Part shown: positions 19,487-64,000 of the stretch, piece after piece
Layout of the letters: each line of letters starts with the position of its first letter
Numbering within the stretch: the stretch's first letter is position 1
Assembly: GCA_035048485.1 (NCBI GenBank)
Contig: CM068592.1
Span: 31,804,001 to 31,868,000, forward strand
Direction of reading: 5' to 3'
DNA: 64,000 bases
From: Pteria penguin
Taxonomy: Eukaryota; Mollusca; Bivalvia; Pterioida; Pteriidae
Made by a program: the position numbers and the translations under genes
The notes under the pieces: model-generated
What the model saw: only the letters and a program-made list of their open reading frames with translations
Told to the model about the DNA's origin: nothing
Databases searched by the model: none

Positions 19487-20515
19487 CTAACACTCAGAAT
19501 ACCGGTACATGATTACTGTGTATATGTTACACTCAGAATACCGGTACATGATTACTGAGTATATGTTACACTCAGAATACCGGTACATGATTACTGTGTA
19601 TATGTTACACTCAGAATACCGGTACATGATTACTGAGTATATGTGACAGTAACACTCAGAATACCGGTATATGATTACTGAGTATATGTAACACTCAGAA
19701 TACCGGTACCTGATTACTGTGTATATGTAACACTCAGAATACCGGTACATGATTACTGAGTATATGTTACACTCAGAATACCGGTACATGATTACTGAGT
19801 ATATGTAACACTCAGAATACCGGTACATGATTACTGTGTATATGTAACACTCAGAATACCGGTACATGATTACTGTGTATATGTAACACTCAGAATACCG
19901 GTACATGATTACTGTGTATATGTTACACTCAGAATACCGGTACATGATTACTGAGTATATGTAACACTCAGAATACCGGTACATGATTACTGTGTATATG
20001 TAACACTCAGAATACCGGTACATGATTACTGAGTGTATGTAACACTCAGAATACCGGTACATGATTACTGTGTATATGTAACACTCAGAATACCGGTACA
20101 TGATTACTGAGTATATGTAACACTCAGAATACCGGTACATGATTACTGTGTATATGTTACACTCAGAATACCGGTACATGATTACTGAGTATATGTTACA
20201 CTCAGAATACCGGTACATGATTACTGTGTATATGTTACACTCAGAATACCGGTACATGATTACTGAGTGTATGTAACACTCAGAATACCGGTACATGACT
20301 ACTGTGTATATGTTACACTCGGAATACCGGTACATGTCTACTGAGGATATTGATTTTGTGATTTTTGTTTTACGTCACACCACGAATATTTCACTACTGA
20401 GTATATGTAACACTCAGAATACCGGTACATGATTACTGTGTATGTGACAGTAACACTCAGAATACCGGTACATGATTACAATGTATATGTAACCCTCAGA
20501 ATACCGGTATTTTAC
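19487..20515. repeat. 39-bp satellite ('actcagaataccggtacatg')
   Basis: About 25 highly uniform units: cactcagaataccggtacat, gattactgtgtatatgtta. Units with tgtgta and tgagta alternate irregularly. Because 39 is divisible by 3, the minus strand shows a 282-codon repetitive ORF (VIMYRYSECNIYT units); this is not taken as a gene. At 20352-20392 a fragment of SINE family 1 interrupts the array. Confidence 0.95.
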
Positions 20516-25800: not shown

Positions 25801-25809
25801 TATAAAGAG

Positions 25810-26195
25810 AAATAAACAACCCTGTCGACAAAGCGAAACAGAAATAAACAACCCTGTCGACAAAGCAAAACAGAAATAAACAACCCTGTCGACAAAGTAA
25901 AACAGAAATAAACAACCCTGTCGACAAAGCAAAACAGAAATAAACAACCCTGTCGACAAAGTAAAACAGAAATAAACAACCCTGTCGACAACGCAAAACA
26001 GAAATAAATAACCCTGTCGACAACGCAAAACAGAAATAAACAACCCTGTCGACAACGCAAAACAGAAATAAACAACCCTGTCGACAAAGCAAAACAAAAA
26101 TAAACAACCCTGTCGACAAAGCAAAACAGAAATAAACAACCCTGTCGACAAAGCAAAACAGAAATAAACAACCCTGTCGACAAAGCAAAACAGAA
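25810..26195. repeat. 32-bp satellite ('ccctgtcgacaaagcaaaac')
   Basis: Twelve units with exact 32-base spacing, each with a GTCGAC. Neither 32 nor its stop content breaks any minus-strand frame, so three overlapping ORFs of 121-184 codons appear; they are artefacts. Confidence 0.95.
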
Positions 26196-27363
26196 AAAAA
26201 AAATAAAGAAATAGACCATGGGCGCAGGATCATAATGATGTGTGTATTTTCTATTCTGACACTATGCCACTTGACATACCATCAGGGCATATCGATAAAG
26301 TTAAGAACGTAATACAATAATCAATGCATTTAAGTGCTAATTTCTAAAAATAAACATTTGTGCAATTATTAATTATGTAAATTTAATATAATCCTGGGAA
26401 TATTGACATGCGGACGTGTAAACTGCCGCTGCTGTAGAAATTTTAATGCGATATTGATGAAGTTTCATACCGAGAATATTGAGGATAGGAAACAAATATA
26501 AAATCTCCTGTATAACAGCAATTTCTAAATTGTTAATTTAATTTTCTTTGATCTGAGGTTTTTATCACAAAATACATTATTCAGGGGACTACTGTACTCT
26601 GTTGGAATATTAACCTTGATTTCTCTATCACCTTCATGAAAGCGAGATTGCATGTAAGGATGGTAAAAACAAGAAGAAATTGATTAGGTCCATTGGCGAC
26701 AGGAAATTATTGTAAAATGTTTAGAGCAAATAAAAGCGGACAATTTCCTGTGACACGACATAGACGGCGCTGCAATAGCCTTGTGATGTCGTGACAGGGA
26801 GATGACGGCGTAAGGATTAATTGAATGAGGGGACGTAATTTATTATGATCGTAAGATGCTAAAAGAGTTGGGATATTATACTTGTATTATTGAAGGATGC
26901 TATTATACTCGACTAACAGGGATCTATGATTGGTTTGTAAGGTATGAATGCCAAATGCAGTCTACATATATGAATACATTGATCCAATAGATGTCGATTT
27001 TATCTAGTGAATGGTTCATCATGCATTTGTTTTACGGAGTTTAATGCTGTATTGCAAAAATGGTTTTGTGTGTTATATGAACAGGGTCTAAAGCTTGTTA
27101 ATACATTTGTTGTACGTAATGCACGAAACTTCACACAGACTCTTTTTAAAAATATTTTTTATCCAAATGTCAAGGTCAGGGCATGTTTATTTGGATGTAA
27201 TTTCCAGGCCGTAACTCATGTTTATTTCAGTAACTAGGTATGATTTTTAAGGAAACCGATGATAAAGTTCACAGGGTTCCTAGTCCGGTATATGAATGTG
27301 GTTTCAATTTCAAGATCCCTTCCTATAGACATTAAGTTCAACTCTATCGTACGATGCATATCA

Positions 27364-38170: not shown

Positions 38171-38703
38171 ATTATAAAGAAGGAAACGAGAAAATCTGAA
38201 ATATGAGTTGACCAGTAAATTCTGGATTTACAGATCTTCATACATTCCATTGGAGGATTGAAATTTCAATTAGCCAATCAAAATGGCTAGCTTCTTTAGG
38301 AGGAAGAGGAGTTTAATTTTCAAATTTCTTATCGGAATTCCAGCTATTTATTTTACAATTGTGATAGTTCTTGCATATCAGGGTGGACCCAGTCATGCGC
38401 ATGACAGTCGGGCAGATGTTGAAAAGAGAAATATTTTAGAAAAAAATAAAAATAACGTGTTACAGGAGAGACCTAAAGAAAGTTTTGCAAATGATAAAAA
38501 TCATGACCATATACATTTAGGTGATAGTGAAAAATTAGCTCATGATAGGAAAATCCATGCTGATGAACAAAGAGAAATAGCGCGTAAAATGGAAGAAGAT
38601 CGACGAAAGATGGAAGAAGAAAGTAAAAGAAGAAATGAAATGAAATTTGAACCCCAAGAGAGAAAATTGCCGGAACGGCCTTATGTAGACCCAAATGCTC
38701 CAG
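38171..38703 (+). CDS. GALNT exon 1: 5'UTR end, start codon, membrane anchor and stem
   Basis: The start ATG at 38283 has a good context (A at -3, G at +4). It opens a 140-residue segment: a short basic tail (FRRKRS), a hydrophobic stretch at about residues 11-31 that fits a type II signal anchor, then a charged stem rich in Lys/Glu. Residues about 95-120 ([18 protein letters not shown]) look like a short coiled coil. The donor is CCAG|gtacgt at 38704, phase 1. A pyrimidine tract and cag ending at 38170 form a strong acceptor before the ATG, so the exon probably starts at 38171 with 112 bases of 5'UTR. At least one noncoding exon and the promoter then lie upstream, not identified here. Confidence 0.88.
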
Positions 38704-41700
38704 GTACGTATATGTTGTGTAATGCTATACACACTTGTCGTTCCGAGTCCTTCATACTCTGCTAATGACGTAGTCATTATGAATGGTCGTCGGCACTGCA
38801 TGGCAAGCGCTTAATTACTTCTACAATAAGGACCCCCCTCCCTTTCGTGAAGCAGGGTGTGTTCGAATGGACAGAGAGACCGCCTCTGAGTAGAATATCT
38901 TATATTTCTAATTTCATCTGACTGGCCGCATAGTCATGTCTTATTTACAATAAATTGTGATCGTTTAGCCGACGTGCTCAACAAATGTTAGATTTTGTTT
39001 TGGATATGTCCCAAACCCTCCATTTCGGACGATCGAGACTTTGGTCAAACTTTGGAAGCTTACACAATATATATGGTACCGCCATTATTGAGATGGAGTA
39101 CAGTGTTAGTAAGGTACTTGTCGTATCTATTGTTAAACATTTTGATTCTTTTTTTTAAAATGATTTTAACATGTTTAAGTATATATATTCGGAACACACG
39201 TAAATAATCATTGAGTTTCTTTAATGGAAGTATATTGTTAGCTGCTGAGCCTTCTCTAACACATCTTTGTTTGTATATAGCGGGAATTGGCCAAGTAGTT
39301 ACATTTCTAATTGTTATCTTTATTAGAGGGAATTATAGAAAATAACCAGTGTCAGCCTTAGTGTCTCCTGGTGATGGGGTGCCACTTAGAATCATAGCGG
39401 TTTTTTTCTTTTAAAGACATAAGTTAACCCGTACCTACTTGACCCCCCTTATCTATCTATATACATGTATTTATCAAATACAAACATCCTTCTTTCGGAA
39501 GCCGCCTGGTAGACTGTTGCCTTAAGAGCTCACTTACAAAATGTACTTTAACACTACGAAGATGTATGGGTGTTACCCAATAAGGGATCAAGTATTGTGA
39601 TTACGACTCGCGTTCAAGGTTCGTCTGTCGTTCAATCAACCAGTCGTTCGTTAATAATAATTGTTTTTCTCCAAAGTTTGGAGAATGGGACATTTAAATA
39701 TTTTATCGACAATTGAACGATACGATTTCTGAATGGCAGTGTAGGCTAGGAACATATGATTCTGAACAAAATCAAAATGTTGTCTTCAGAAGGGGATGAA
39801 GATGAAATTTGCTACTCATGATCTGTTTAATTAACGATCATTTATTACTTTCAGCAGTCTGTATCTCTGGTCAACTAAACAACAGAATAATGATCGTAGA
39901 GCTACGGGTCTGAATTCCGTATATATCGATGATGCAATACTAACCCAATATTGATTCGAGAAACTAATGGTAACAGTTTACCAATAAATTATTTTCGCTA
40001 CTTTGCGATCTTCGAACACGCCCGACGACTCGCCGGTTTCGAGGAAGACGATGAAAGCCGAGATTGCGTGTCGTGTAGCGGTTGACTTGTTTAACTATAA
40101 GGCCCCACGATACTTCGGTGTCGGTCTATTACATAGGTTGAAATCCTTGTGCAAATCCTGTCACAGTGTAAGTAAAGTCATAATGACAAACAAAAGGGCT
40201 TCGGAATCAGATCGTCTTCGTTACAGGATAAAACGATTAATCATTGCTACAGCCCTGACGCTTCCATGCTTAAACGAAGGAAACTAACAAGGGTTATTGG
40301 GAACACAATGCTATCAGGCTTGGCACTTCTCCTAATATGCAATTTGGTTCAATTTCGAAACAATCAATATTGTTTGTATTCTCTTTTGTTCGATTTATCG
40401 CTTGTTGTTATACACGTAAATATCATCTGCACTTCGATGTATCGGTCAGATGTGATAAATGGCTTTTGCAAAGTAACCTGAGTTCACATTTGATATGGTA
40501 TGAACTTTCAATGAAGAAAAATCAGAAAGGATATCCGTTGACCTTTAGAGTAAAGTCATTATTTCGTTATTGTTTCGTTGACACTGTTCCTCCTCTGTTT
40601 TAGGCATTATTATTTAGGCCTCGCTATATGGTGGATGCCCTTTAGTAATCAAGCTGTCTGTCCATCTGTCTCTCGCACCGTTTGTCCATCATAACTTTCT
40701 ATGGCACACTAGTACTTAATTTTCCTGTTGAAGATTTTCAACATGATAATGAGATATGGCAAAGGAAGACCCCCTTCGATTTTCAAACTTATCCGCTCTG
40801 CTGTTACAGAATTTTGGGATTTGTGGAGGATTTGTTGATGATTTTACTTTTATTTATTTCAATATATTTAATAAAGATAACACAACACTGTTTAATTCAG
40901 GCGATGGCTTGATATTACGTTAGAAAATGAGATTACATGAGAAGATTTTTGCAAATCTTTCTGTAATACCCCGATAAAGCGTAGGAAGACCCCTTTTAAT
41001 TTTCTTTTCTCTTTTTTTCATTTTCTTTTTTAATGATTTGTTGTTGCAGCATTACGAAACTGGGGGAATATTTTCCCAGTATTGTTGGAAATCCTATCAG
41101 TGGGGCCCATTCTGTCTGTGTTGTAGTATGTATTATGCAGTTTATACCATTGAAATGCAGTTAAATATGTTAAAAACATTCATACTACTTGTAGGGTTAT
41201 TAATCTAGTTCTCGACAGAATTTCAATGAAAACATACTCATATATTAAATGTGAGGTTTTGCTGCTTTTAATGGGAAATTCAGGAGCCTTAATTAAATGT
41301 TTGAAAAAAGTGATACAGCAAAACTACATATATTCATGAACTAAATTTACTTAATTCGCAAGATCCTGATTGCTGATTCACTTTTTTGACTCCTGCCTTT
41401 ATACACACTGCATTTTTTTTATTCTTCATCGGGACAGAAAATCTGCCCATGTTTAGAACAATAGATTTAGTAGGTGACTAAAATACAAAACATGACCGTA
41501 ATGAGTGTTTGGGGTCTTGCGAGAGTTCGAATAATGTGTGGAGATGCATGCGCGGATCTAGAGAGAGATTGTGGGTCCATATCCCCAGGAATTTGCAAAA
41601 TATATATCATGATTTTTGAAAAAGTTGAGATATTGCAATTGTTCGCTAAGTGCCATAAGTTTGAACACCCCACCCACCCAGTGTTGGAAAAATTCAGAAT

Positions 41701-44700
41701 CCATGCATAATTTTGTTAACACAAAGCCGTGACATGATTCAGATCCTATGTGAACTCGGATATTTTTTATTTTTGTATAATTACTGACCTACAGAATGCC
41801 CTAGAGACCCCAAAAGCCAGAAAAAAGGCCTTCCTTGGTTGATGTAGTTACTATCAATTTAAATAGACATTTGGCTTTCCCAATTTTGTAGGAGAGAGCG
41901 GTCGAGCTGTTGTTATAGACAAGGACAAGTTAAACCCGGAAGAGAGAAAAAAATACGATGAGGGATGGCAGAATAATGCCTTCAACCAGTATGCTAGTGA
42001 CATGATCTCTCTTCATAGATCTTTGCCTGATGTACGAGACGAAGAGTAAGTACTCAAAGGTCATTTGTGAAATTAAATATATATGCACATTATCTTGGCC
42101 AAAAATAGATCATTCAACATTTGTAAATTTGAAATTAACCTTCATATCACCTGAATAATGTAAATTTGTAATGCTTGTAATGTGTTAGGTTACTGAATTC
42201 TGGTTGTTTACAGATGTAAATCAGTGAAGTACAGAGACAATTTGCCGGACACTAGTGTGGTAGTATGCTTTCATAACGAGGCTTGGACTGTATTATTACG
42301 TACAGTTCACAGTATTATTGATCGGTCCCCACCACATCTGCTGAAGGAAATTATATTGGTGGATGATTTCTCTGATATGGGTATGTTAAAGAAGTTTACA
42401 GCTCTACACTTGATAACAGAAATCATGGTAACCACTGTCTCTCGTTAACTTGGACCATCTGATTCTGGTAAAATTAAAGATTGCTCTATTTCTGGTTTAC
42501 TTCGGTCCCCTCATTTTAGCAATTGGGAAAGCTTTGCCAATGTTTCTGGTTTACTCAAGGCCCCTAATATAGGCATTATGGTGGACTTAACCAATGTTTC
42601 TGGTTTTTAGTCCTGTAGCCAAAGTTTCTGGTCTTTGGTCCTCTAGCCAAAGTTTCTGGTCTTTGGTCCTGTGTTATCCTCAATACAGAACATTTGCCAC
42701 AAACTGTGAACATGCCTAATACATCTTAGTATGAATTAAAGAAATATTACAAAAGAGTGAGCATCATGAATGTGAATCCAGAAGGGATGTTTGATTTTGT
42801 GATTTTCTATTACACTTTGATTTCTAGCGCACCTGAGTTGATTAGGTTCAAGTGAACTATAGTTATAGCAGTGTGTCTGGTGTCAGCTGTCAATTAACCA
42901 TAAACTTTTCATATTTTTGACTTTTTCAAAACCATTGAATAGATTTTGATGAAACTTGGACAGGATAAACAGCTTAAGGTCCCCTACAAATGTTTTTGAC
43001 TTTTTGCCAGATCTGTCATAGATTTCAGAGGGAAACCTACTTTGGCAATCTTCTTCCTCAGATCCGCTGCAGAAACGAGCAAAATGAAACAGCAAAGTGA
43101 TCTAAAAGGTGGTTACAAAATGCTGTTGGTTTTTTTTTCTTTCCATTCGGCATTTCCAAGTCAAACTTTTCAACCAATATTTGCTTCTTGATTAAGTATG
43201 CAGACAGATGAGCTTTTTCAATAATGTACATGTATATTATAGAAGTATTTGTGTATAAGTGTTTACGAATAATGCATTCACAGTTCGTTAAAAATCCATT
43301 CAAGAAAAAGCAGAAAAGTGTTACAAGAGCTTTATGTTTTGTACTTATAATAATCAATATCATAATTGTTTCATTAAAAGGACAGTTTTATTTCAATATA
43401 TGATGGAACACACAAAGAATTATATAACCTTGAAATATGAGTTCATGGTCATTTGACACCTATAATCTGTTTGGACATTTCTAGGAGAAAGTGTGACAAA
43501 AATGTCATTTATCATGTTTGTAGTAAAGGTTTTGCAGAGCATTGTTTATCTCTGCTGGATAAGAAGATATCCTTAAACTCAGGAAAAATCAGTTATAACA
43601 AAATCAAGAGGTGTTTATTTCCAAGTATTCTTCAAAAATTAATTAAAATGAAGTCTTATTCAATAGAAAAAGTTTTATAAACTTAGGAGGATTTAATATA
43701 TTTATACATTTTCATATTTAATAACAGTTAATGAAGACTTCCATTTTCACCAATCTGCATTATTAAATGTAGTTTAAAACACTTCTTTCATGTGTAATTC
43801 CTGGAAAATCTATTTATAGAACATCTTAAAAAGCCATTGGAAGATTACATAGCTAAATTAGGAAAGGTCAAGGTTGTTCGCACCAAGAAAAGGGAAGGGC
43901 TCATCAGAGCTCGGTTGTTAGGTTATTCTGTATCCACGGGAACTGTTCTAACTTATTTGGATTCACATTGTGAATGTGCAGAAGGTTGGTACATATATTT
44001 AGTATGCATATAATATTCTGTACGTCAAGGTAATACATCTGCATTGTTATTTTAATTGCTTTGAAGTTTTGTTTTTGAATTCTAAAATCTGAAGGAATTA
44101 TACACATAACTTTGTGCACTTGTACATGATTAAAAATTCTTCTTACAAAGAGTAGCCTATCTTCATATATTGTTAAATATTCAAATGTAGAATTCATTTT
44201 AATGTCGAAATAGGTAATGAAGTGTAGAGTTCTTTTTGGAATTTCAAATTCAAAGTGAATCAAATAATTTTAAATCTTTTTGAAAGTAATATTTTTATAT
44301 ATCAAGAAATAATGGTAAAAGCAACATTTATTCATGTATGATCATAGTTTTCATTTCAGCACATAAAGTTGTCATAGGTAGAACATTATTTAAGATTTCA
44401 ATATTAGCTGATACATGTTTGAGGATATTAGTTCATTCAACATGGTATCAACATATGAAATATGAGTTACCCACCTTTGTAGGTTGGCTTGAACCTCTCT
44501 TAGAACGTATTGCTGAGAACAAATCCATTGTTGTTTGTCCTGTAATTGATGTTATTGAAGATGAGTCTTTTAAGTACCAATATGGCAATGCCAAAGCTAC
44601 AAGTATCGGGGGTTTTGATTGGAACATGCAATTCAATTGGCACGCTATACCTGAATATGAAAGAAAACGACGAAATTACAAAGATTATATGCCTGTCAGG

Positions 44701-47700
44701 TATACATTACCATAGCAACACGTTTCCCTAGCAACCAGTACTGTGCTACCCTTCTAGTTACTAACTGTCTTCTGTTAATCTCATTTGAAGTATTATGGTC
44801 TGTCTGTTGTTTAAAGGAGAGAATTTATATATTTTTATCATATTTTCTATAAAATCGTAAATTTTTTTCTGTAATTTCTTATTTGTTAATATATATTTGT
44901 TTTTTGGAGATAGGATGTCAGTATTGTTAGACTTCTACTTTCATTTGTACCACAAACATATTTTATAACAGTTATGCTTCAGCTGTAAAATCATTTGTCT
45001 AGTAGGCATCATTTTGTCTGGTAGGCATCATTTTGAAATTGAATTTTTAAAATCCTAGCATTCGTTGAATAATAACAGTCAATACAAACATGATACGACT
45101 TTGAGTCATAATGCAGAAATTAAAAGTATGAAAACTGTTACGTCACTTACAGTGAGTTGTAAATAAGAATGATAGAATTATTCCTATTGAAAGCTTATAC
45201 TTTGGGCGGTTATTCATTTCATTGCTTTACAAAAGAAGGGGTTCGAGATATAGGCTGTGAATTTTGAATAAAAACAGAAGACTACATGGCTTGCACAATG
45301 CAGGCGATTTAGATTAGAATCCTTTTGTTTAAAAGGTTTATTACCTCTTTTTTCATGTCCCTTTATGACTGAACTCTTGTTGAAAGCAACATAAACCCCA
45401 ATCAGCCAATTATAATTACACAGATAATACCTTAGATAATTATCATATTTGTTGCCTTGGGAAAGGAAATCTTCGATGATTTACGTTGCGATGAATAAAC
45501 AAATAAACCATCATAAAATCCACCATAATGCTCAATATATATGAATGCTAAAGCTTTCCAGTAAAACCCAGATTTTCATGAAGCTTAAAGTTGCCAAATG
45601 TTTTCTCATTTTCATCAGTTGAGATTTCAGATAATCCCTGAATCCTGAATCTCTGATATCAGAAGAAGGATGAATGTCATTTTGACTGTAGTTTATTTCA
45701 TTAAGAAGACCGGCTTTCTATTTTATCTTTTTTGATGACACAAACCCCGTTTACGATGGTTCCACTGGGAAATCTTAAGCTTTATGCTGTCACATTAGAA
45801 ATTCTTATTGAAATTTTCCGACAGAGATCACGGGATTTGTTTTGCACAACATTCGGTCAATATGAAAAGAATCTGAGTGTGTTTGGGAGGTCATGGAATA
45901 TTGAAAACCAGAAAACAGACAAGAGTTGAAGGAACCCACATTTTAGATATAACAGTGTAGAAGAATATTTAATAATGTAGTTGGTTCATGTTTACATGAT
46001 TATGGCTAACTTATGGTTAAGGCTAATTTATACCTATCTCCTGACCACTCAAAAAATTTCCGTTTGTCTGTCGAAGTTCCACCTAGTAATTTGTTGTTAA
46101 ATCTTGCCGTTTAAAACTGTACCAATCGCGATGCAGGCTTAGGTATATACATTATTAATTAACTTAGGTAAATACGCTATGAATTGACTAAGGTGTATAT
46201 GCTGTGAATTGACTTAGGTATATACGCTTTGAATTGACTAAGGTATATACGCTATGAATTGACTGAGGTATATACGCTGTGAATTGACTGAGGTATATAT
46301 GCTATGAATTGACTTAGGTATATACGCTATGAATTGACTTAGGTATATACGCTATGAATTGACTGAGGTATATACGCTATGAATTGACTGAGGTATATAT
46401 GCTATGAATTGACTGAGGTATATATGCTATGAATTGACTAAGGTATATACGCTATGAATTGACTTAGGTATATACACTATGAATTGACTTAGGTATATAT
46501 GCTATGAATTGACTGAGGTATATATGCTATGAATTGACTTAGGTATATACGCTATGAATTGACTTAGGTATATACGCTATGAATTGACTTAGGTATATAC
46601 GCTATGAATTGACTTAGGTATATACGCTATGAATTGACTGAGGTATATACACTATGAATTGACTTAGGTATATATGCTATGAATTGACTGAGGTATATAT
46701 GCTATGAATTGACTTAGGTATATATGCTATGAATTGACTTAGGTATATACGCTATGAATTGACTTAGGTATATACGCTATGAATTGACTGAGGTATATAC
46801 ACTATGAATTGACTGAGGTATATATCAGAGACATAGAGTAGTCTATGCCTCTGGTGTATATACACTATGAATTGACTTACTAGGTATATATGCTATGAAT
46901 TAACTTAGTTTCAAATTTGAGTTTCTAAGAAATATGTATAATTCTCTCCTGAATGATGCATGGATGTCTGTATAGAGCAGTTTGTTGTATTGGGTTTTTA
47001 CATCTCTACTAACTCCATATCTCTACCTATCAGAGACACAAAATGGTCATTTAGTACAGAATAAAAAAGAACTACTAGAAAGGATAATTTGGGACCAAGA
47101 AATTTCTTGTAAATGTATTGATTTAAAGGTATCTATACGTTTTTGAGAAAAATTGTTGAATTTCTTCAATGTGGTGATACTTCTACTGAAACTTAACAGC
47201 AGGATTCATGATTTTTTTTTTCAACATAAGTTGCCTCCATTCAGAATGCTTAAGATTGGTTCCCTAGCAGTCTGTGTGCATCACAGTTCTATATATAATT
47301 ACATCCTGATACATGAGTAATACAATACATTTGACCATTCCTAACATTTTTGGAAAAATCTTACCATTAAAGAAATTTTCAATGGGGTCCTTTTCTTCAT
47401 CAACATTTATCCTACTTGACCTCTTGTCTCTGTGATCAGTAAGTTATTTATAGTACTCTTAACAATGTACTAATTATAATGCTGCTTTATGTACTGTATC
47501 AATAACACTAGCATGCTGTGTTCATACTAACACTTTCTACTCAGGCTAGAACTACATATGCTGAAAGAAAAAAAGAAAATCCCATATCAATAGAAATAGC
47601 CAGGTTCACATGAAATTCTAAGGATAGGAAAGCTATTGATATGATTGTACTTTTTATAAAATTTTTCATTCTATTGACTGGTTGCTTTTTGATGGTCTAA

Positions 47701-50700
47701 TTTTGATAGTTATGCTATGAATCACCAAATAAAAGGTTCATCATTTCATGTTTTCTATTTTCGTGAGATAAGAAAATATATTACGAATAATGATATTTTG
47801 TGAAATAAGGGAATCAATTACAAATACATGTTTTACTGACTGTCATTATGGAAGAAAAAAATTTTTATTTTCACAGAATTATTAATTCAAGTAGGGGACA
47901 TAATCCTCAGTTACTCTTACTGGACCTTCTTTTTTTGTTATTAATGTCACATGACATGCTAATTACTTGATCCAAGAAGGTTTCCATTTTTCATTGGAAT
48001 GTAATGAATAATCTTCAGTGATTGCTTTTATTTGCTGTCTCTGTCAAACTCTTCTAAAATGAAATGCTCAGTAATGCCTTTTAGATATTGTGTATCCTTT
48101 AATATTTCTTACTACTACTTCTGCCATGATGTTCTCTGATAACAGGGTCTTTATTTCTACTACTACTATGCTGTGATCACTACTGCTAGTATTACTAGGA
48201 CAGTTATTGCTACTTGTAGTAAATCTCAATTTTTCTACTACTAGCTGTTTTGAAATAATTTTTTCTGAGTCCTCAATATGCTGCATACTCCAGAACAGTT
48301 TCTTTTATTGACATTTCTGATATTTCTTGGATACACCATGTTGATCAGTTTCAAACTATCTTCTTGATATTGCATTTGACAACTAGCACTCCTGGTAATG
48401 ATAACTGGGTTTGATGAAGGTCTGCTGTACTTTGATACTTTTTTTGTCACTTTTCTTCTGTTCCTACTTTCGAATTGCATTGACATCATTATCATCATTC
48501 TGTCAGACTGTCTTTAAGAGAGAGACGTTAGCACATGTACTGGTAATGTAATTGATCAGCACTGACAGGTCAAAGGTTACAGCTATGGTTGTGTAAGTGC
48601 AGTGCTGGTAGGTCAAGGTTGCTGCTTCTTAAAATAAAAGTATTTCAAAACAATGTGAAATCTCAACATATCAGATTAGGGATATGGAGAGGAAAATTGT
48701 GTCGAGGAAGGTTTGGATATGTTTAATTATTGTGGCACCTGGTGTGATTACAATGTAGTGTATGGATCTAAAACAGATTCATTAAGACTGATTGATCATT
48801 GTTTTATGTCACTCCAGGATTATTTCACACATATGGTGATGGCATCTGACTGATCCATTGCATAGAAATTTATACCCTTGCAATAGACCCATCTGAAACA
48901 GTGAGGGATCTTTTACGTGCCAAGCCTATGGTGACATGGAACCTTGGATTTTACTGTCACATCCATAAGACAGAACGCCAGTGTGCCCATGATGGGATTC
49001 TAACCTGGGACCTCTTGGTCACAAGTCAAGCACCACATCCGCCAGGCTTAACTAGCTGCAAATACCTTAAGAATTACATTATATATACATGTGTTTACAT
49101 TGGCACGTGAATTTATGCATAGTTGAAGTTCTTGTACATATTTAAAAAAAAAAGGAGGATGTCATTTTGAAGTTTCATTGTGATATTTAAGATGACATTG
49201 AGGTGAAATTGAACGTTCTGTAAAATTAGGTCATGGGCATTTTGCTGATCAGAGATTTGACCTTACATGACAGAGATGTAATCTTCAATTCAATAATTTG
49301 ACTCAGAGGTACAAGGCTTTGTATCTTTATATGAAATGAGATTTACAGCATTTCCTTTCATGTTCTTCAGGCTGGTTAGAGCCCCTTTTGGCCAGAATTG
49401 GGCAAGGATCTGAGCATGTTGTCACCCCAGTCATTGGTAACATCAATGACGATACCTTACATTATACATCATTTGCTGCCGAACACATCAGTGTCGGAAA
49501 ATTTAACTGGAATTTGCAATTTAATTGGATGGCAATGCCCCAGTATATTAAAAAGTTCCAAAACTCCAAAATCGACCCAGTTAGGTTAGTAAGCAAAGTC
49601 TTCCCGTAGATCTTTAGTCTTTTATTTTCTGTCAGACGTAATTGATTTATTTATATTATTATTTCTTTTCCAAAACTGTATTTTTTTGGTTTATTTGTGT
49701 TAAGTGTTTCAGATGTATTTTAGACAGTGTTTAGATTCCTTTTTTTGCACCAAAATACAGATATAAGTGGTAATATTCATTGAATATGGAATAGAAAAAA
49801 AAATGTTGTTTTATTTAAAATCAAGGATTTATTATATTTTAAATGCAGGCATAAAATTTTATTATTGTGTACAGGAGCAATATTTTCTTTCACACTAATC
49901 CTGTTCATACCCTAAATATTATGATCTTCCAGACTGAGTCATCTTTTATGCATGCATTCATGCATATATCTCAGTGCCCGTGCATTACATTATACTCGCA
50001 TATCTACAAAATTCTGAATAAATATGACTTCTCTTCACATATGATACTGCCATGCACTTTCTACAAATCTTATCACGTCCATAAAGTAATTACCATCCCT
50101 AGTAATGCAGATGAAATATTAGGCAAGCAATAACCTATATGTGTGCAGAATTCGTATTGCCTGATATTGGCAGTCTATAGCTGCAAGTGATATATTTCAT
50201 TATCTTGTCACTATTTTCATTGTTGTCCTCACTTTGCAGCCCATGGTGTATTTGGTTTTCATTATTTGTGGATATTGTTGTGGCATTCTGTGAACGCATA
50301 GTCACAGTTCCTACTCCAGGAGTTTCGTGTCTTTGCATTTGTCATTGTTACGTTATTTATAGGAACTTTTTATGTCATTTTCTTTTTTCAGTTTTTGTTT
50401 TTTCTCAAGAAATTAAAACTGTCTTGAAACTGATCTTAATTACATATTTGAGTGCTTAGCTAGTGATTAATTGCCTTGGCAGACTGGTAATTCAATTTTC
50501 AAGAAAGTGTTTTAGGTCTTTACAGTCTTTTACATGTTTAGTATAGAAAGTTCATTCATATTAGGAAATGTGTTTCTGTTTATGAAAGCATCTGGTGTTA
50601 TTTTAATTTTTTTGATTTTCGGCCCATAAGTACCGGTATGACAAATATCAGGTCTAATAAAATTGTATTAGTTTCATTGATATATAATTTAGAGTCGGTA

Positions 50701-53700
50701 ATGTATGTCCATGATAGATATGACAGTACCATGACAGGGTCATGACATCATAGACACGTCAATGTGCATCAACAAAACCATTTGTGTGGGGCAGTATGTC
50801 CATGAGTAACCTGGTAGAACTGTGATTGGGTCAGTTGTATATGATTTGTGTGGGTCAGTATTTCCATGAGGAACCTGGTAGAACTTTGATGGGGTCTGTT
50901 GCACATGATAGACATAGTAATGTCCTTTGAAATAGTCATCAACCAAACCATTTGTATGGGTCAGTATATTCATATTAAAACTTGTTCAACTGAGTTGTGA
51001 CCTGGTAGAATCTAGAACTGGGACTCCAGTATCATTACATCATGAGCATATTACACGTTGCTTTTGTAAAGGAGAGGTGGTCCAGGATATCTGAGGAGAG
51101 TTGGTCCAGGATATCTGAGGTGGTCTAGGATATCTGCAGAGAGGTGGTCCAGGATATCTGAGGTGGTCTAGGATATCTGCAGAGAGGTGGTCCAGGATAT
51201 CTGAGGTGGTCTAGGATATCTGAGGAGAGGTGGTCCAGGATATCTGAGGAGAGTTGGTCCAGGATATCTGAGGTGGTCTAGGATATCTGCAGAGAGGTGG
51301 TCCAGGATATCTGAGGTGGTCTAGGATATCTGCAGAGAGGTGGTCCAGGATATCTGAGGTGGTCTAGGATATCTGAGGAGAGGTGGTCCAGGATATCTGA
51401 GGAGAGTTGGTCCAGGATATCTGAGGTGGTCTAGGATATCTGCAGAGAGGTGGTCCAGGATATCTGAGGTGGTCTAGGATATCTGAGGAGAGGTGGTCCA
51501 GGATATCTGAGGAGAGGTGGTATTTCTTTTCCGGTACTCTTCTCTCCTACACCACTAATCAGTGGCTGCCACCATATAGGTGAAATATTCCGGACATTGC
51601 ATTTGATAACATCTTAAGCAATTTATTGATATCACATCATACAGTTGTATTTTATACTTAGCATTAGAGGTACATGTACCCCAATGTAATAAAATATAAC
51701 CACACAGAACATGTAACTACATAATGCATCTTCCTTACCTACAACAGGATGGCTACAACCCATACTACAACGCATCGCAGATGATGAACATAACGTGCTG
51801 TGTCCTGTTATAGATAACATAGACTATGACACATTCCGATACAAATTCACTAAGAGCCCAGATATATCCATTGGTCGATTCGACTGGGATCTTGGTTTCA
51901 ATTGGATGTACTTACCTAACAAAACAAAACATGAATTAAAAACACCAAATTCACCAATTAGGTGATTTTTCTTAGATTTTCATTATTTACCCCTTTGTTG
52001 CAATAGTTTTCTTTCTTGGTATTTTTTTTCTGGGTATGTGTTTTATTTTGATATTCTCCCTTTGTATACCCAATTAAATGATACATTAGAATAGCATACT
52101 GTTTTATGTAGTGATTTCATTTTTTTTTTCTTCATTTGGCACAACATGACATTTTGGCACATAGTGTGGATTAAAGGAAAAGATCACTTTAATCCTATGG
52201 GAACTTAATTCATATGATTTGATAAGAAATAAATGGAAATGTAAAGTAAAGTCTTTTTAAAGTACATAAGGTATTAAAAGTCTGTAAGATACAAAAATGT
52301 GGTAAAAATTCAAGAGTGCCGTAGAAACCGTACTAAAAGTGCATAAGATCATTGCTTATTAAAGCTCTTTATGTTAGATAAAATATTGTCTATCATCTCG
52401 TACCATATTGGAAGTGCACAAATGAGACAATAATGATATCCTAATGGATTTACTGATTGCCTTCTCCATTTAGGTTGCAAGTTCTTCAGTTTATTAGAGG
52501 ATAAAAACAAAAGTCCTTCTGCGCTGAAATATATGGTGTATTCCTTAGGTCTAGGATGGTTTAAGGAAAGAAATTCTCAGAACGAAGGAAATGATGACAA
52601 CAAGTATTTTTATAAGGCAGTTGATGATTCGGACAAAGTTGTTTCCAAAAATGACATTCTACCAATATATTCAATGTTATATTAAACAAAAACTGATTTT
52701 TAAATTTTTTTTGAGGAAATATCTTGCATGATCATTTTAATCACAATGGTTGAGCAGTGGTCACCACTGGGAAGACATTCTATTTGTGAGTAATATAATG
52801 GTAAAGTTAATGTGTTTGATAAATAGGTTGGCTTGAACCACTTTTGGGGAGAATTGCGGAGAACAAACGCTTCGTTGTAACTCCCGTCATTGAGAACATC
52901 ATTGACGAGGACTTCAGCTATCAAGGCACCAGACCTGAAGGCATCTTTGTGGGCAAATTCAATTGGGAACTGACTTTCGACTGGATGCCCATACCAGAAT
53001 ATGTCAAGAAAAATATGAGCACACCCATCAGTCCTGTTAGGTTAGAGTTGTGGTTCTTGGTTCTCATGGGCAAGATGTGTGAAGCGTAGAGCTAGAATAA
53101 ACCCTCCCTAATCTATCATCTATCTCTCTTTTCTCTTCAGTATACTTACCATGCTTATTGTAAAATCACATTCCTTGAAGAAGACATTCTGAAAATAATG
53201 ACTAATACTCTTAACAGAGTTAGCTTAGCGACTACTATATGTCAAGTTAATTGAATTGTTTACTTCCTTTGTCTTTGCACCTTGTTTCCTTTGTCATAAC
53301 TGTTAGCAAAAATCATTGTCTTTTATAATCGACCAATTAAAATGAAACTAAAATATCAAGAATGGTGATCAGGAAATGAAAATATTGCAATACATATGTA
53401 TGAAAAAGTGGAAAAGATTCTGTCTTTATTATATTTCTGTTTTCATCTTGACATGAGCAATTAATTAAAAAATGTCATCTAGAAAATATTTCTTTTATAC
53501 ATATTAAGTGTAACATATACAAGAAAAAAACTGAAATGAAAATCTGCCTCCTCTGTGTTCCATTCTTCATCTTGACAATCACACTTCATTAACAGTTCTA
53601 ACCAATATTAAAAACACCCTAACATACTTTCAGCATTGATTTATGCAAATTTCATTCAATAGTATTTTTCTACCATGAATAAATCACACCTTAAGTGGCT

Positions 53701-56700
53701 TATGTAGCCGCTGGATGGAACATGCCACTAGGAAAAGATGTCCCATACATTGTTAATTACATTGAAGGTTGGTTACAGCCATTATTGGCACGCATCCAGG
53801 AGAATTCTACCCATGTGGTCTCTCCAGTCGTCCACAATCTTGACACCACCACATTGGCATTGCACCATAGTAAACAAATATACCTTGGAGTGTTTCGTAT
53901 CGATCTGTCCTTTCAATGGGAGTTACCAAAACATCTCCCAAAACACAGAATCAAAACGGCACCACTCAGGTTCATTTCTCTTAAAGGCATGGACTCATGA
54001 TTAATTGGTCCTGGTATTTGAGGATACATTTTCTGGTCTAAGGTTTTCTAAGAATTAATATGCTATTTGAATTTACAAATTTTCTAAATGTGCCGATATC
54101 ACCTGTTCCATTTTAATTCATTTTTCCACAAATGTTTCAATTTATGACTTTTTAACTTAATAACTATTTTTATAAATACATGCATCTGCTGGTTGATTTC
54201 CTTTCATTTTCCATTGCCTTTCCCTAACCTTTTTCCCTTGCTATAATTATAAATACATCTAGGTATTTTGGAATTAGGTCATTTTTGTTTGCATATATAA
54301 AGGAAAACTCTAAAATTTTGGAACATAACTGTGTAAAATAAGCTTGTCGACTTCTGATGAAAAAGAATTGTAGGGAGTAGTGATGTCATAGCTGTACAAC
54401 TGTATATCATACTGTAGCCTACTACTGCTCTTGAGCTAACAGGACTGATGCCAGATTCTCAGATACACTTATCTTTATAAATAGCCTTTAAAAATGAAAA
54501 AAGATCTTGGATTCTACATTTTTAATACACTATCCATTCCAGGGGAAATGTATTGTGAATTTCACTCATCCATTTTGTGAAAAGTTTATGATGTAAATGG
54601 AGTTTGGGAAATATTGTTGTAAGTTCAAAACTATTATTTCAGATTTGAAAGTGAAGTCTGAAAAAATGTAGGCATACAATATTTAGTTAACCAACTTGAT
54701 TAGAGTGCTGGAGATGTGAGTGTCCTCCACCAGCATGCCATAACAGACATGGTAAACAAGAAAACCCTTTTTAATGCCTAAAATGTAATAAATATACTTT
54801 AGATATAAAGTATCCAAGTATATTCTTGATTCTTATAAATCTGATTTCTCGCATATAAGGAATATGCTTTAATATGATAGATGGTAATGTCTCTTAGGTT
54901 GGTTGGAGCCAATGTTAGACCGTATCATGGATGACATGAGCAATGTGGTCTATCCTCAAATGCCCCAAATAAAGGATGATACCTTTGAATTTGTTGCCTT
55001 CAAGGCCAGAAACATCCAGGTGGGCCGATTTGATTGGGAACTGATATTCCGTTGGATGACTTTACCTGAGAACCTTAACAAGACCCGCAAGTCTATCATT
55101 AGTCCTGCTAGGTCAGTGACAGGGGTACAGTAGGCTAACAGAGTGATAAGGAGAGAGCAATGGAACTTGCAGTACTGTTAAAGAAATTAAGATTAGTTGT
55201 AGACATCTAAACCCAGGTGATCAATACTAAGCTTAATCATATGATTAGTTGATTTTACTGTTAACGACAAAAATTTAGCTAAATACAAGGTACCAAATTT
55301 CTACATGATGAAGCATGTACATTGGTTTTTTCACAATTAAATGAAAGTTTAATTATAGGTTGTAAAGGAATGCAAAATTTAAAATTTCCCCAGAATCATA
55401 TGATTAAGCTAATCAAGTTTTGAATCACTGGGCCCATATCTTTATCTGACCAGGAATTATACTGTCATGTACACCAGAGTTGATTCAAACCCCATTGTCA
55501 AAATGTCTGTACCTCTATAAAAGAAATACATGAGTTTCATATTAATTCAGTGCATACTAATGATCCGAAATCACAGAGCTGTCATAGTTTTTATATCAAA
55601 ATCTGTGACTTTAAATCAAGTCAAACTTGATGGATTTCATATTTTGAATAGTAAAGGAATTGCCATGGTTATGTCAGGTAGTCCTGCAAGTTCTTATAGC
55701 TCCTTCTTGACCAGTGTCCAGTTTGAAAGCTCACTTTACTGACCATTCAGGATAGATATGCTATAAAGGCCTCTATTTCCCTATATCATCAATTAAATAT
55801 TTTTGTATGTGCATTACTAAAAATAACTGCTGTTAAACAAAAGTTACTCATATTCATAGAATTCAAGGCAACAAATTTGTTCATGCCACATTAAGTTTAA
55901 GAAGTACCGGTATGTGTTTTTGATATTTGTGGGTTAATTAAACTGCTATAAAAATGGTTGTTCAAAATGAAAACTGTGGCTAAATGAATGAAGTTTGTTG
56001 TTTTTACTAGGGAGCTTGCTTTAAATAGTCAAACTGCTTGAGTTAGAATTACACATCATGAATTGATTAATAGACAAACTGCTTCAGTCAGAAATATACA
56101 TCATAAATTAATTCATAGTCAAACTGCTTCAATCAGAAATATACATCGTAAATTAATTTATTTACTAACCCTCGCAAACTGTGCCTCTTCCCATTTGGTA
56201 AACACTGAATAAAATAAAAAGTATTTGTGATAAATATGTTAAGCAAAACACATAAAAATCAAAGTGATTTGAATTAAATGTAGGATTTACTTAATAAACA
56301 TGAAATATAAATATGTATTGTATGAAGCTTATTTGCAGTCGTCCATAGGAATTTGCTTATATATGTATCCATAATTCAGAGCTTACACAGCAGTGCTGAT
56401 TTCAATTTCAATAAGGGAGGGGGGAATGCTGCTAAAATTTGTTAATTTGGTTACTGTAATCAGTAAAGCATCTAGTATGTTCCAGTAATTTTACATGTAT
56501 CATATGAATGAAGACACACAATACTCTTTTTTACCTTTGTGTTGTACTGTGTATGTTTATTGTATGTAGCTAGAATTTTCCTTCTTTTCATTCTGATATT
56601 TTGTACAATATTCTCATGATTGCTTTGCATATTAACAACACTAAGATTGCTTTATTGCATCTAATTGGTCTAATGGTTTTATTCCACTTCAAACTGATAG

Positions 56701-59700
56701 TTAAGGTAGTACATCCTTCTGGTAAGAAGAATAACTCAAAGTTTGATTTTCTTTTAATAATTTATGACACAACCCTATCTATATTATGAAATATTGATTT
56801 TCTCTTTAAGATACCTTCCAAAATGTTATGCCAAAATGTTATGTCAAAATTCCCTGCATCAAGAGAATACTTATTGTCTAGAAAATGATTATTAGAATTA
56901 TGCAAATTAGCAAAGCCATATTTCCTTGAACAGAGGGATGGTGTGCCTTAACTTTCTGGTGATGGCTATGAACATTATATATGATAACCTCTACTTTCTT
57001 ACAGATTTTGTTTTTATTTTAGTAAGCATGATTTGTATGTACTTGATCAATCTTTACAAAATTTAAGTGTTGTTAAACTATGTACATAAATTTTATGAAT
57101 ATATTTAATGCAGAGAAGTGCTTCTGGTTGAATTAAAATTCAGTATAAAGTTAATTGTTAATTTGATAATTTATTTTAGACATTCTTGTATACAATACTG
57201 TATACATATCTTCATCGGTGCTATCCACCGAAGCAAAATTAAATCAAATCAATTACATTCAATTTGATGTTATTTAACAGAGAATTTGTTACAAAAAATA
57301 TCTGTAAAGTTAACCAAATATTGATAACATCTGAAGAATAATTTCATCTTATTAAAATTTTTATTCCTAATGTATTTAGGTCACCAACTATGGCAGGGGG
57401 ATTATTCTCTATCAGCAGAGAATATTTTACTCACCTTGGCACCTATGATCCTGGGATGGACATCTGGGGTGGAGAAAATCTGGAGTTGTCATTTAGGGTA
57501 GGTGGCATCCGTTGATCTTCGTATCATACGTTGTAATTGTTAACATAATTTTTGCTTTTGCATTGGAGAAATAGGAATTGAGAGGATAGAGCTCATGTAA
57601 AAGAACTGATCATGGTGTCCTGATAAATTAAAAATAAATAAATAGACCTTTTTTCCAGCTGTATATGATATAAGGGGCCTAATGCACGACAAACTATGTT
57701 TTGCCACTATTTTTTCTGTTATTTAATGCTTGAATTGTGATATCACAATGAAGTGATGAAAATTCTGAAGAAAACATCTCATGTCTAGCATGTCATCAGC
57801 AACTAAAGATTTATATGAAAAAAGGTAAATTTATCCATTGAAAAGCACTAGTACTCTTCAAATCGACAATGATACTTGCCCAAAGTCCTTATCAGTCTTA
57901 AACCTTGCTTTGAATCAGGGCATCAGATCCTGTTATTTCCATTCCTTTTTAGCTCACCTGAGCCAAAGGCTCAAGTGAGCTATAGTCATAGTGCGCCGTC
58001 CGTCGTCGTCGTGGTGACTATTTTGATCATAATTGTGGTAAGGAATATTATTATGAAAGAATTTTGTCATTATCTCAATTTTTGGATTTTCTATGAATTT
58101 TTTTAAGACTTCCAAATGAGGGTGTATAGGAACAATTCAATCACATTTTTCACTTCTGCTGTTATACCACATGAAAGATTTTAATGAAACATGGAATACA
58201 TGAAGTACTAGAGGTCCTCTATCAATTTGGTAAATTTCATCCAAATTGGTTAACAGATAATGCCACCATGTCTAAAAAGCATTTCTCACAATGGTACATA
58301 TACCACTTGGTAATTGAAATATGGAGAGTAGCGGTTCAAATCCAGCTGTGGTCAAAATTTTTTTTTTTCATTTCTTTACACATCTAAATAAGTTTTTAGA
58401 TGTTTCTCAACACTCAACATATGAAATAGGCAATTTTAAGTTAGATCTGGACAATATTTGAAACAATTGTTGTTCATGACCCAGACTTGAAATCAGTCAA
58501 CAAAAGGCCCACCTAAAGAAAATGACTAACTTGTTGCCCTGAATGACTTCTTGCAGAGACAAAGGAAATGCTTAATATCAAAATCACCTGAATGGATGTG
58601 CAAAAAAGTGTTGTTTTTTTATTCTAGCCTGAAATAAAATTTGACATATTTTCAACATCTGTGTTGACTTCGTCACATTAATGCAAAAATAAATGAATTC
58701 TTCCTTCATGCATGACTGATCATCTAGGTACTCAGGTGAGCGATATAGGCCCACTTGGGCCTCTTGTTTTGTAGTACGAATGTTGAAATATGTTATATAT
58801 AAACATGAGATATATAAGATATTCATCAGAACTGTGAAAGTTTGACATGGAAATGATGAATCATCAGAATTAATGTGTAATTGACATGGAGTGTCAGCAT
58901 GAAGTGTTGATTGGATCACGGGATTCACACTGTGAAATATGATCATTGCCAGAAGTAACATGCATGATGGGAAGGTATGCCACAATGCTGAGATCTTAAT
59001 TATCAGTTGAAGGCTTATGAATTTGTAATTCCTATAAACTGGTGACATGTTGCTGAATCACCACGTTGATGCTCAGCAGTTAATAGTTCTTGTACCTATT
59101 TCATTATACTCAAACTCTTTCCTTTTTTTTTTCACACAAAATATTCTGATTGACACTTATTTGATTCTTAAGCAGAGAAAACAAGAGAGGTACATTCTGG
59201 ACAAAAGGAAATTTATAGTATAGGATGTATATATAGGATGTATATATAGGATGTATATGAAATCAGTATTAGCTTGTCATATTGAAGTTACTCTCAACAT
59301 CTGATCAATACAACTCCAAAATGTAATTTGTTCAGAAAATAGATTAAGGTTTAATTGTTAAGAGGAATCCCTTCATCTCTCTAGAAGCCAAAGAATTATT
59401 CAGTACATGACTTATTATTTGCGATTTAATAGTTCTTTAATAAATCCATATTAAGAATTACATTTCATTCATTGCCTGTTGTGAGCATATGAGTATGTGA
59501 AGATTCCTCACTGGGGATATTTTGAATTTCTTCTCCTTGCCTGCACCCACATATTTATGTTCTACCAATTATATAATGCTATAAATATAACAAAAATAAA
59601 AATTAATATACATGCATGGTTACCTTGTTATTTCCGTCCACCACTGAAGGTCATACACACACGTTATTTCCACATTCATTATGCCATTGCAGGGAATTAG

Positions 59701-62700
59701 GGGCAGGCTTGGTATAGTGATCAAGTGTTTGGCTTGCAGTGCAGATGATCTGAGTCTGATTCCCACATTCTGCCACTATGTTTAGGAGGTTGGTTACCGC
59801 CTACTCTCCTGACCCAAGACAAGGCCATGAAATCACCATTACGTCTTTGTTCTTTGTGTATATATACCTAGGGGTGACATATGAACCAACATTTACAAAT
59901 TTTTTTTCAATCAGAGATGCTGTCCACAAAAGTTTATACCAATAAACCTGTATTTTGTGGTAAAAATGTGAAAAATGGAAATCATGAAGATTCAGTATTT
60001 TATAGTATACCTACAAATCACCATATAGATTCATAGATAAATTCAGTATGGGATTTTTTCATGACATTACATGAAATTTGTTTTGTCTTCAACAATAATT
60101 AAGCTTATGATCACCATGTTTGTCAGTGTGCATATCTATGATACCTTATTTGTCAGTCCCTCATACCTATGACACTTATTTTTTGGTCCCTTTTACCTGT
60201 GATCACCTTTTTTTAGTTCCCTCTTTCACTTTTATTTCTTCTATCTTCGACAGCAATAATTTATTCCTATGAACTCTGTTTATTCTCTAAACAGTGAGTC
60301 TTGTAACAAATACTTTATTGAAGGGTTTGTTTATTATATATAGATATATTCATGTATAATAATTCTGGAAATTTAAGGTAGAATTTCATTGCAGGTCTGG
60401 ATGTGTGGTGGGACATTAGAGATCATACCTTGTTCTCATGTTGGCCATATTTTCCGTAAAAGGAGTCCATATAAATGGCGAACAGGTGTCAACGTAGTAA
60501 AGAAGAACTCTATTCGTCTAGCAGAAGTATGGATGGACGAGTATAAGAATTATTACTATGAGCGGTTTAACTATGACTTGGTAAGTACTCTAGCAGACTA
60601 TTTAAAAGTTTAAGGTAGAACATTACTGTAATAAGGGAGCTAACTCTAGTAACTGTCATTTATTTCAATTCACTATTCACTTACTATGAAGATATGTTTA
60701 AGTCCTTTTGCATTGTGATAATATTATTTCTCATACAATATGAATGTCACCACTCACCAGAAGACATAGCATCAGAAGGCCTTATTCTGATGGTTTCGGC
60801 CAGATACAAATGTAGCGTAATCAGAATACAGTGTAACATTACTGGAGAAGTCGGCCCCTTGATATGTATTATGTATTAATCAAGGCATGAGTTGCATATT
60901 CTTGAATGTAGTATGACGGAAATATATTATGACATTTACATCTCATTGTTTCTGAAATTTCAGGGAGATTATGGGGATGTAACAGAAAGGAAGAAGCTAA
61001 GAGAAAAACTTCAGTGTAAATCATTTGACTGGTTCGTGAAAAACATCTATCCTGACCTTTTTGTACCTGGGGAAGCAGTTGCATCTGGAGAGGTAAAGTT
61101 TGGTCTTCTAAAACAACATTATTGTTTTATTTAGTAATGGCAAGATGTGACTGTGAAGAATTTGAGTACTTAGTATTGGTTTTGCATATAATTCAGTCTC
61201 CCATAATGGCAACCTGTCTAGTACCTGCCACATGGTACTTAAGTAGAGTACCTTGTACCTGCCACATGGTACTTAGGTAGGGTACCGTGTTCCTGCCACA
61301 TGGTACTCAGGTAGGGTACCTTGCACCTGTCACATGGATCTTCAGTAGGGTACCATTTGTGGTTGTAACAGTAATTTTGTATAAATGAACTATTTATCTT
61401 TATAGATTCGGAGCAAGGCCAAACCTATGTGTGTGGACAGCTCTGTAGATTCCCATAATTACCATAAACCAGTCAACATGTGGCCATGTCATAACCAGGG
61501 TGGAAACCAGGTAAGTGTGGTATCATCATAAGCAGTGTGGTAACCAGGTAAATGTGGTGTCACATGATAATCATGGTAGTGTAGTAAACAGGTGTGGAGT
61601 CATAACCACAGTGGAAACCAGATAAATGTAGTGTCATAATAGGGTGGTAACCAGGTAAAAGTGATGTCATAATGAAGGTGGTAACCAGGTAAATATGGTG
61701 TCATAATGAGGGTGGTGACCAGGTAAAAGTGGTATCGTAATCAGTGTGGTAAACCGGTCTGGAGTCATAACCAGGCTGGAAACAATGTAAATGTAGTGTC
61801 ATAATAGGGTGGTAGTCTGGTAATGTTCAGGATGGTTTTCAGATAGGTTTGAAATCAAAATCAGGGTGATAATAAGATACTTCGGGTATCCTAATCAGGT
61901 TGGTCATAACCAGGTATATCTGATATGATAACCGGGTATGTCTGACATCATAACCAGGTAAAACTGATAATCTAACCTGGTATGTCTGATGTCATAACCA
62001 GGTAGGTCTGATGTCATAACCATGTAGGTCTGGTTCATAACCAGGATGTCTGATACTATAACTTGTATGTCTGTAAACAGGTACATCAAGTGTAATAACC
62101 AGGTATATCAGATGTTATATCCTGATATGTCTGATGTCATAGCCAGGTATGCTTGTTGTCATCATGAGGTATGTCTGATGTCAATACCAAGGTAGTTACT
62201 TAATGAAAAAAGCTTCTTAGGCAAGACTTGAATAATTTTCAACATAAGAGAATTAAATACATGTTGCTGTACATGTTTTACTATGATAGTACCAGGAGAA
62301 AGAAATCTCAATATAATTCACTTTCTTCGACAGATAATGAAGTCATATGTACATGTACAATTGAATATGATAGAGTATTGCATTGCTATATTATACAGTA
62401 TATATAATTTATAATATTGCAGAAGGCTTTTTTGGCTAAGTGAATAAAACTGCTGCAGTGGAAATTACTGTTTTATCTGGTGTTTATGTAGGCTTGGTTC
62501 AGTCCTAGGTTTGGTCTGATATCTATGTAGGCTGGGTTCAGTCCCAGGTTTTGTCTGGTATCGATGTAGTCTAGGTTCAGTGCAAAGGTTTCGTCTTATA
62601 TCTATGTAAGCTGTGTTCAGTCTCTGGCTTTGTCTGGTATTTTTGTAGGCTGGGTATTGTCACAGGTTTTATCTGGTATCTATTTAGGCTGGGTTCAATC

Positions 62701-63534: not shown

Positions 63535-64000
63535 GGCTTCGCCTCTCTGCTATTCTATCAGGGCCTCTATGCTATTCTATCAGGGCCTCTATGCTATTCT
63601 ATTAAAGGCTCTATGCTATTCTATCAGGGCCTGTATGCTATTCTATTAAAGGCTCTATGCTATTCTATCAGGGCCTGTATGCTATTCTATTAAAGGCTCC
63701 ATGCTATTCTATCAGGGCCTGTATGCTATTCTATTAAAGGCTCTATGCTATTCTATCAGGGCCTGTATGCTATTCTATTATAGGCTCTATGCTATTCTAT
63801 CAGGGCCTGTATGCTATTCTATTAAAGGCTCTATGCTATTCTATCAGGGCCTGTATGCTATTCTATTAAAGGCTCTATGCTATTCTATCAGGGCCTGTAT
63901 GCTATTCTATTAAAGGCTCCATGCTATTCTATCAGGGCCTGTATGCTATTCTATTAAAGGCTCTATGCTATTCTATCAGGGCCTGTATGCTATTCTATTA
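63535..64000 (+). repeat. 22/44-bp satellite in GALNT intron 10, runs off window
   Basis: Alternating 22-base half-units ctattctatcagggcctgta-tg and ctattctattaaaggctcta-tg, about 20 half-units. The array continues past the window end; the ORF at 63701 is an artefact. Confidence 0.93.

Follow-up and report, generated by a model that had tools for sequence, protein, structure and literature searches.

Animals diversify their initiators of O-glycosylation through many GALNT genes. Within single genes of this enzyme family, the passages on Drosophila PGANT9A/9B (PMC6115407) describe an alternative exon that alters substrate choice in a tissue-specific manner, and those on Drosophila PGANT5A/5B (PMC12776162) describe splice variants within the catalytic domain which change peptide preference. 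GALNT13, Pgant5 and gly-5 are named in a passage of PMC9741552 as recurrent tandem-exon substitutions in the family, and as of 2019 only one mollusc enzyme of this kind, from Biomphalaria, had been characterised according to a passage of PMC6994419. Here we describe a window of 64,000 nucleotides (nt) from the bivalve Pteria penguin (contig CM068592.1 of assembly GCA_035048485.1, forward-strand positions 31,804,001 to 31,868,000; positions below are those of the window), which contains a PGANT9-like polypeptide N-acetylgalactosaminyltransferase (GalNAc-transferase) gene with six intact versions of the exon predicted to form a wall of the acceptor pocket. We consider it probable that exactly one of the six is used per mRNA, and that the choice alters which peptides the enzyme accepts.

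The six exons, here termed cassettes 5a to 5f, lie in tandem on the + strand. Cassette 5a (44483..44699, 217 nt) is of the canonical metazoan type, with the motif GGFDW, and is 92% identical to the oyster a-type. Cassettes 5b (49371..49584) and 5d (52827..53040) are 214 nt long and of a GK type, with 5b being 61% identical to Crassostrea gigas P0007 and 5d grouping with C. gigas X2 and a C. virginica-like sequence. Cassettes 5c (51748..51961) and 5f (54898..55111) are also 214 nt long but of a GR type, and 5f groups with C. gigas X5, to which it is 78% identical. Finally, cassette 5e (53768..53969, 202 nt) is divergent and has a low-scoring donor, with an intact open frame. All six are preceded by AG and followed by a GT donor, are entered in phase 1 and left in phase 2, and contain no stops; they are thus tandem homologous exons with equal phases at one position, an arrangement expected of a mutually exclusive cluster. 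The original prediction had claimed six homologous, intact exons with AG/GT borders, each encoding a segment from GWLEPLL to PVR, between constant exons 4 and 6, and all of this was borne out: the six starts were exact, translation gave GWLEP to PVR in each copy (68–73 residues, located in the catalytic domain after the DSH metal motif and before SPTMAGG), and the exon 4 donor (43985) and the acceptor AG ending at 57379 were confirmed, with both flanking exons present as single copies.

Pairwise identity between the cassettes is 34–55% at the amino acid level, with BLAST E-values from about 2e-8 to 9e-24, and the next tblastn matches to them on either strand of the window had E ≥ 0.3. A profile of 44 cassettes, which included the six from the window, recovered the same six (E ≤ 7.1e-22), with the remaining matches at E ≥ 1.6, and neither search of the window revealed a hidden or degenerate seventh copy. 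One tblastn match at cassette 5b extended past its donor, and was rejected as a chance extension as it passes through stops. Only 1.9% of 210-nt frames sampled from the region (cassettes included) were open, so that chance does not explain six copies that are all open and agree in phase. Synonymous change was saturated (undefined) in 12 of the 15 cassette pairs and was 1.95–3.40 in the other three, nonsynonymous change (dN) was 0.44–0.76, and second codon positions were the least changed. The introns between the cassettes showed no homology at E 0.01 except for one 21-nt inverted match. Two of these introns contain minisatellites, one between 5a and 5b (46138–46824; 25 base pairs (bp) × 27 copies) and one between 5b and 5c (51070–51521; nested units of 43, 110 and 153 bp). 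As assemblies can fail at such repeats, the array might represent several paralogous genes collapsed into one locus. This is very improbable, since the repetition is limited to the cassette: for exons 4 and 6, no second match was present in the window below E 0.5, and whole-protein tblastn found one place for each non-cassette exon, the exception being a weak lectin-repeat echo within exon 10 (E 0.041), with no second GALNT gene or duplicated neighbouring exons in the window. A C. gigas gene model, P0121, also has three cassettes strung ahead of exon 6.

The cassette lengths (217, 214, 214, 214, 202 and 214 nt) all leave a remainder of one when divided by three. We translated every in-order combination of zero to six cassettes from exon 1 to exon 10. 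With a single cassette, the frame stayed open through exon 10 and gave 592–597 residues (597 for cassette 5a), whereas omission of all cassettes gave a stop after 349 residues, and each of the 57 multi-cassette sets, from two copies up to six, ran into a stop after 376–399 residues. The full enzyme can therefore only be obtained by single inclusion, because any other combination breaks the frame. An in-frame, full-length transcript with two copies, put forward in the original prediction as one observation that would count against it, is thus impossible. The asymmetric phases were probably inherited from an ancestral single exon.

Protein records from C. gigas point in the same direction. Five proteins (P0007, P0009, P0011, P0012 and P0014) carry five different cassettes at the same position, with zero differences over the 298 residues upstream of the cassette. 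Downstream, the 271 residues are the same in four of them, and the sole difference in P0014 is a deletion of 35 residues corresponding to exon 9. As the five proteins differ at the cassette and, save for this deletion, are otherwise identical, they are most simply explained as splice forms of one gene. P0010, which has an X2-type cassette, derives from contigs of ≤2575 nt, short for so intron-rich a gene, and reflects spliced RNA if its label 'lgn' marks read-assembled contigs, a meaning we inferred. In P0121, a 5f-type cassette is the last ahead of exon 6, as in the window. P0122, a protein from a 1327-nt C. virginica-like contig, has a 5d-type cassette joined to exon 6, and its frame starts with 11 residues that do not belong to exon 4, for which a retained intron, an assembly edge and an alternative start are candidates. 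Of the claim that one gene makes up to six initiators, the sequence thus bears out the array itself and the presence of one copy each of the exons for anchor, catalytic core and lectin. Both the frame arithmetic and the C. gigas records support the use of one cassette at a time; use of all six and their activity remain predictions from sequence.

In a list of 120 relatives, 108 had the cassette signature GGF, 11 had GKF or GRF, and one had neither; C. gigas X3 was counted with the GGF set, although the remainder of its cassette is divergent. The 11 GKF/GRF relatives came from Crassostrea, Saccostrea, Mytilus, the chiton Liolophura, Octopus, Solemya and the nemertean Lineus, together with one oyster-like entry. 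As the database merges proteins that are >90% identical, cassette counts per species are lower bounds. An unusual cassette (...GLNFVFIPV...), with Phe in place of the grip Trp, was found in P0070 from the stick insect Timema. Searches with the cassettes alone were weak, because they require shared five-residue words, with 1450 candidates yielding 12 matches at E ≤ 1, and 9 candidates yielding 5 at E ≤ 0.001. A tree was calculated from the six window cassettes and 38 chosen from 128 database proteins (72 columns; bootstrap unsettled; 7 of 40 inner branches starred), and joined 5f with C. gigas X5 (support 100/98), 5d with C. gigas X2 and the C. virginica-like sequence (97/92), and 5a with the canonical bivalve cassettes (96/90). 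Cassettes 5b and 5c had no firmly supported one-to-one partner in this 44-cassette tree. We tentatively propose, at somewhat under even chances, that molluscs and perhaps all lophotrochozoans have an ancient second lineage of the pocket exon beside the canonical one, which would be recognised by Gly-Lys/Arg-Phe, mostly Asn or Gln at GalNAc-T2 position 255, and Met following the grip Trp, and that bivalves expanded it to a six-way selector giving tissue-tuned initiators that might, for instance, act on mucus, byssus or shell proteins.

By alignment with GalNAc-T2, the cassette exon would form the acceptor-peptide wall of the active site, as five of the eight peptide-pocket residues of GalNAc-T2 align within it. 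Two of these, Phe280 and Trp282, which form the Pro-x-Pro grip, are kept in 6/6 cassettes; the other three (positions 255, 270 and 284) vary, and the neighbouring position 273 also changes. The alternates carry Lys, Arg or Val for the second Gly of GGF, and Asn or Gln for Val255. Since 5a is the canonical cassette type across animals, and the alternates carry these replacements, one could suppose that only 5a is enzymatically active, and that the alternates are secreted or Golgi-located binders without glycosylation activity, or dampers of 5a. We regard this as quite unlikely, as neither the DSH motif nor WGGEN nor the loop exon varies between the forms, every cassette retains Phe280 and Trp282, and the alternates still show constraint at the protein level. 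We favour single inclusion of functional cassettes, with the grip held and positions 255, 270, 284 and 273 altered, so that acceptor choice would be retuned; the resulting isoforms would have the donor site and lectin in common but accept different peptides. That a cassette swap may change peptide preference has a precedent in the two-way splicing of PGANT5 and PGANT9, as far as the passages on these describe it. A net-charge switch like that of PGANT9 was considered and rejected, as five of the six cassettes have charges of −2 to 0 and 5e has +4, without a clear pattern.

In the proposed mechanism, each Pteria penguin mRNA would take one cassette, which may be picked by tissue-specific splicing factors, and wrong combinations would be removed by nonsense-mediated decay. 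Scored with a splice-site weight table, the cassette donors ranged from −2.2 to 3.0 and those of the nine remaining exons from 1.8 to 8.6 (1.9 for exon 4), a difference that is suggestive only. Dscam chooses its exon by docker-selector RNA pairing, and when such pairing was looked for in the array, the best sums were −114.9 and −86.9 kcal/mol, neither of which falls outside the minima of the 12 shuffles in its test (−104.0 to −116.0, with one lower, and −86.3 to −95.5, with eleven lower; low power).

Several observations weigh against the reading we prefer. Docker-selector pairing did not clearly exceed the shuffles, albeit with one species and low power, and in P0121, an old gene model from C. 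gigas, three cassettes are joined in a single protein. C. gigas X2, X3, X5 and X6 are automated gene models, judging by their names, and in the structure model of the X3 type the end of the cassette (residues 354–362) has a predicted local distance difference test (pLDDT) score below 50. The fork between canonical and alternate cassettes has a support of just 86/89, under the star level of the tool, with the bootstrap unsettled. The others concern cassette 5e, which is the weakest of the six copies: it lacks the conserved Trp at GalNAc-T2 position 276, has the lowest donor score, forms the longest branch in the cassette tree (2.0), and had no ortholog among the 38 database cassettes in that tree. 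Cassette 5e may be degenerating or specialised. The lost Trp, the donor score and the branch length of 5e, together with the truncation that always follows double inclusion, would also suit an explanation in which some copies, chiefly 5e, are poison exons or duplicates in decay, seldom used productively. This we consider unlikely, since 5e is open throughout and bordered by AG and GT, the protein obtained by splicing it in reaches 110 bits against PF00535, and 5d and 5f have Crassostrea orthologs.

The gene to which the array belongs spans exons 1 to 10 at 38283..63348 on the + strand, with the last lectin exon or exons located beyond the window. Exon 1 (38283..38703) contains the start codon, an N-terminal hydrophobic anchor and the stem, is derived from the splice model and aligns with oyster and snail N-termini. 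Exons 2 (41892..42045) and 3 (42214..42380) are based on the splice model and alignment, with the GT-A catalytic domain beginning in exon 3 and continuing in exon 4 (43820..43984) through the DSH metal motif to the phase-1 donor that is common to all cassettes. Exon 6 (57380..57497) has the common phase-2 acceptor and runs from SPTMAGG to WGGEN, the single-copy exon 7 (60395..60580) aligns with the region of the active-site histidine and flexible loop, and exon 8 (60964..61092) contains the end of the catalytic domain and the linker. Exon 9 (61406..61510, 105 nt, phase 0/0) encodes the first lectin repeat, alpha by alignment with PGANT9, and the lectin continues in exon 10 (63220..63348). The sequence hallmarks of family GT27 were present, with DSH (the DxH metal motif) in exon 4, WGGEN in exon 6 and PF00535 at 110–125 bits in all six spliced forms. 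The ricin-type lectin of GT27 was represented by exons 9 and 10, which align with that of PGANT9, and PF00652 was found in all five C. gigas orthologs, shortened in P0014. Skipping of exon 9 would leave the frame intact, and precisely the corresponding 35-residue block is absent from C. gigas X6 (P0014), which suggests a further choice in splicing, located in the part of the protein that is swapped in PGANT9.

Drosophila PGANT9 was the best solved relative (712 bits, versus 547 for GALNT1), and the top database relatives were P0001 (80% identity) and P0003 from Ostrea edulis (79%). A tree calculated from the constant part placed the window gene close to the branches of oysters and mussels without nesting it in either, and no strongly supported group contained it. 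The freshwater mussel proteins P0058 (Sinanodonta) and P0093 (Potamilus) represent a strongly diverged relative with a long branch in this tree, perhaps a separate paralog. Elsewhere in the window, minisatellites were located at 10302–12399, 19488–20350, 25804–26200 and 63541–64000, the second of which has a 39-bp unit and yields a − strand open frame of 295 residues, apparently an artefact of the repeat. No Rfam families or tRNAs were detected in the window.

The original prediction had named nematode gly-5 and fly pgant9 as cases of limited splice variation in this family. This holds in so far as PGANT9 is spliced in the lectin alpha repeat and gly-5 is listed as a tandem-exon case, but neither is placed in the acceptor-pocket exon in the passages concerned. 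PGANT9A/9B is described there as a two-way swap of about 30 residues of the lectin alpha repeat, whereas the array described here is six-way and comprises 68–73 residues of the catalytic domain; a switch of the PGANT9A/B type was not found, as exon 9 is present in one copy in the window. Similarly, the PGANT5A/5B passage describes a two-way choice for residues 398–457, including the flexible loop, and its counterpart by alignment, exon 7, is present in one copy in the window, so a switch of that type was not found either. For the cases in PMC9741552, the passage gives neither position nor copy number and does not describe a six-copy array, and swapping of the acceptor-pocket exon is not described in the passages of PMC6115407, PMC12776162, PMC4432651, PMC6994419 and PMC9741552. 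The original prediction knew of no six-way cassette in this family: no six-way acceptor-pocket array appeared among the literature matches listed, for which not all queries were array-specific and subscription journals were mostly outside the scope, and the swaps known from the passages on PGANT5 and PGANT9 are two-way. Arrays of the Dscam type likewise consist of tandem homologous exons used one per mRNA, but Dscam itself uses docker-selector pairing, which did not stand out in the GALNT array; selector sequences of Dscam are named in the passage of PMC6071210. If our reading is correct, one gene would diversify initiators by exchanging, within a single enzyme, the wall that grips the peptide while the remainder stays constant. 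Six pockets on one scaffold would represent a natural domain-swap experiment, in which acceptor preference can be read against pocket residues, and would offer a route into the glycosylation of mollusc mucins and adhesives. Tandem-exon swaps in GALNT genes are known; what appears to be new, judging by the literature matches listed, is a six-way array in the acceptor-pocket exon, with isoforms already present in public protein records.
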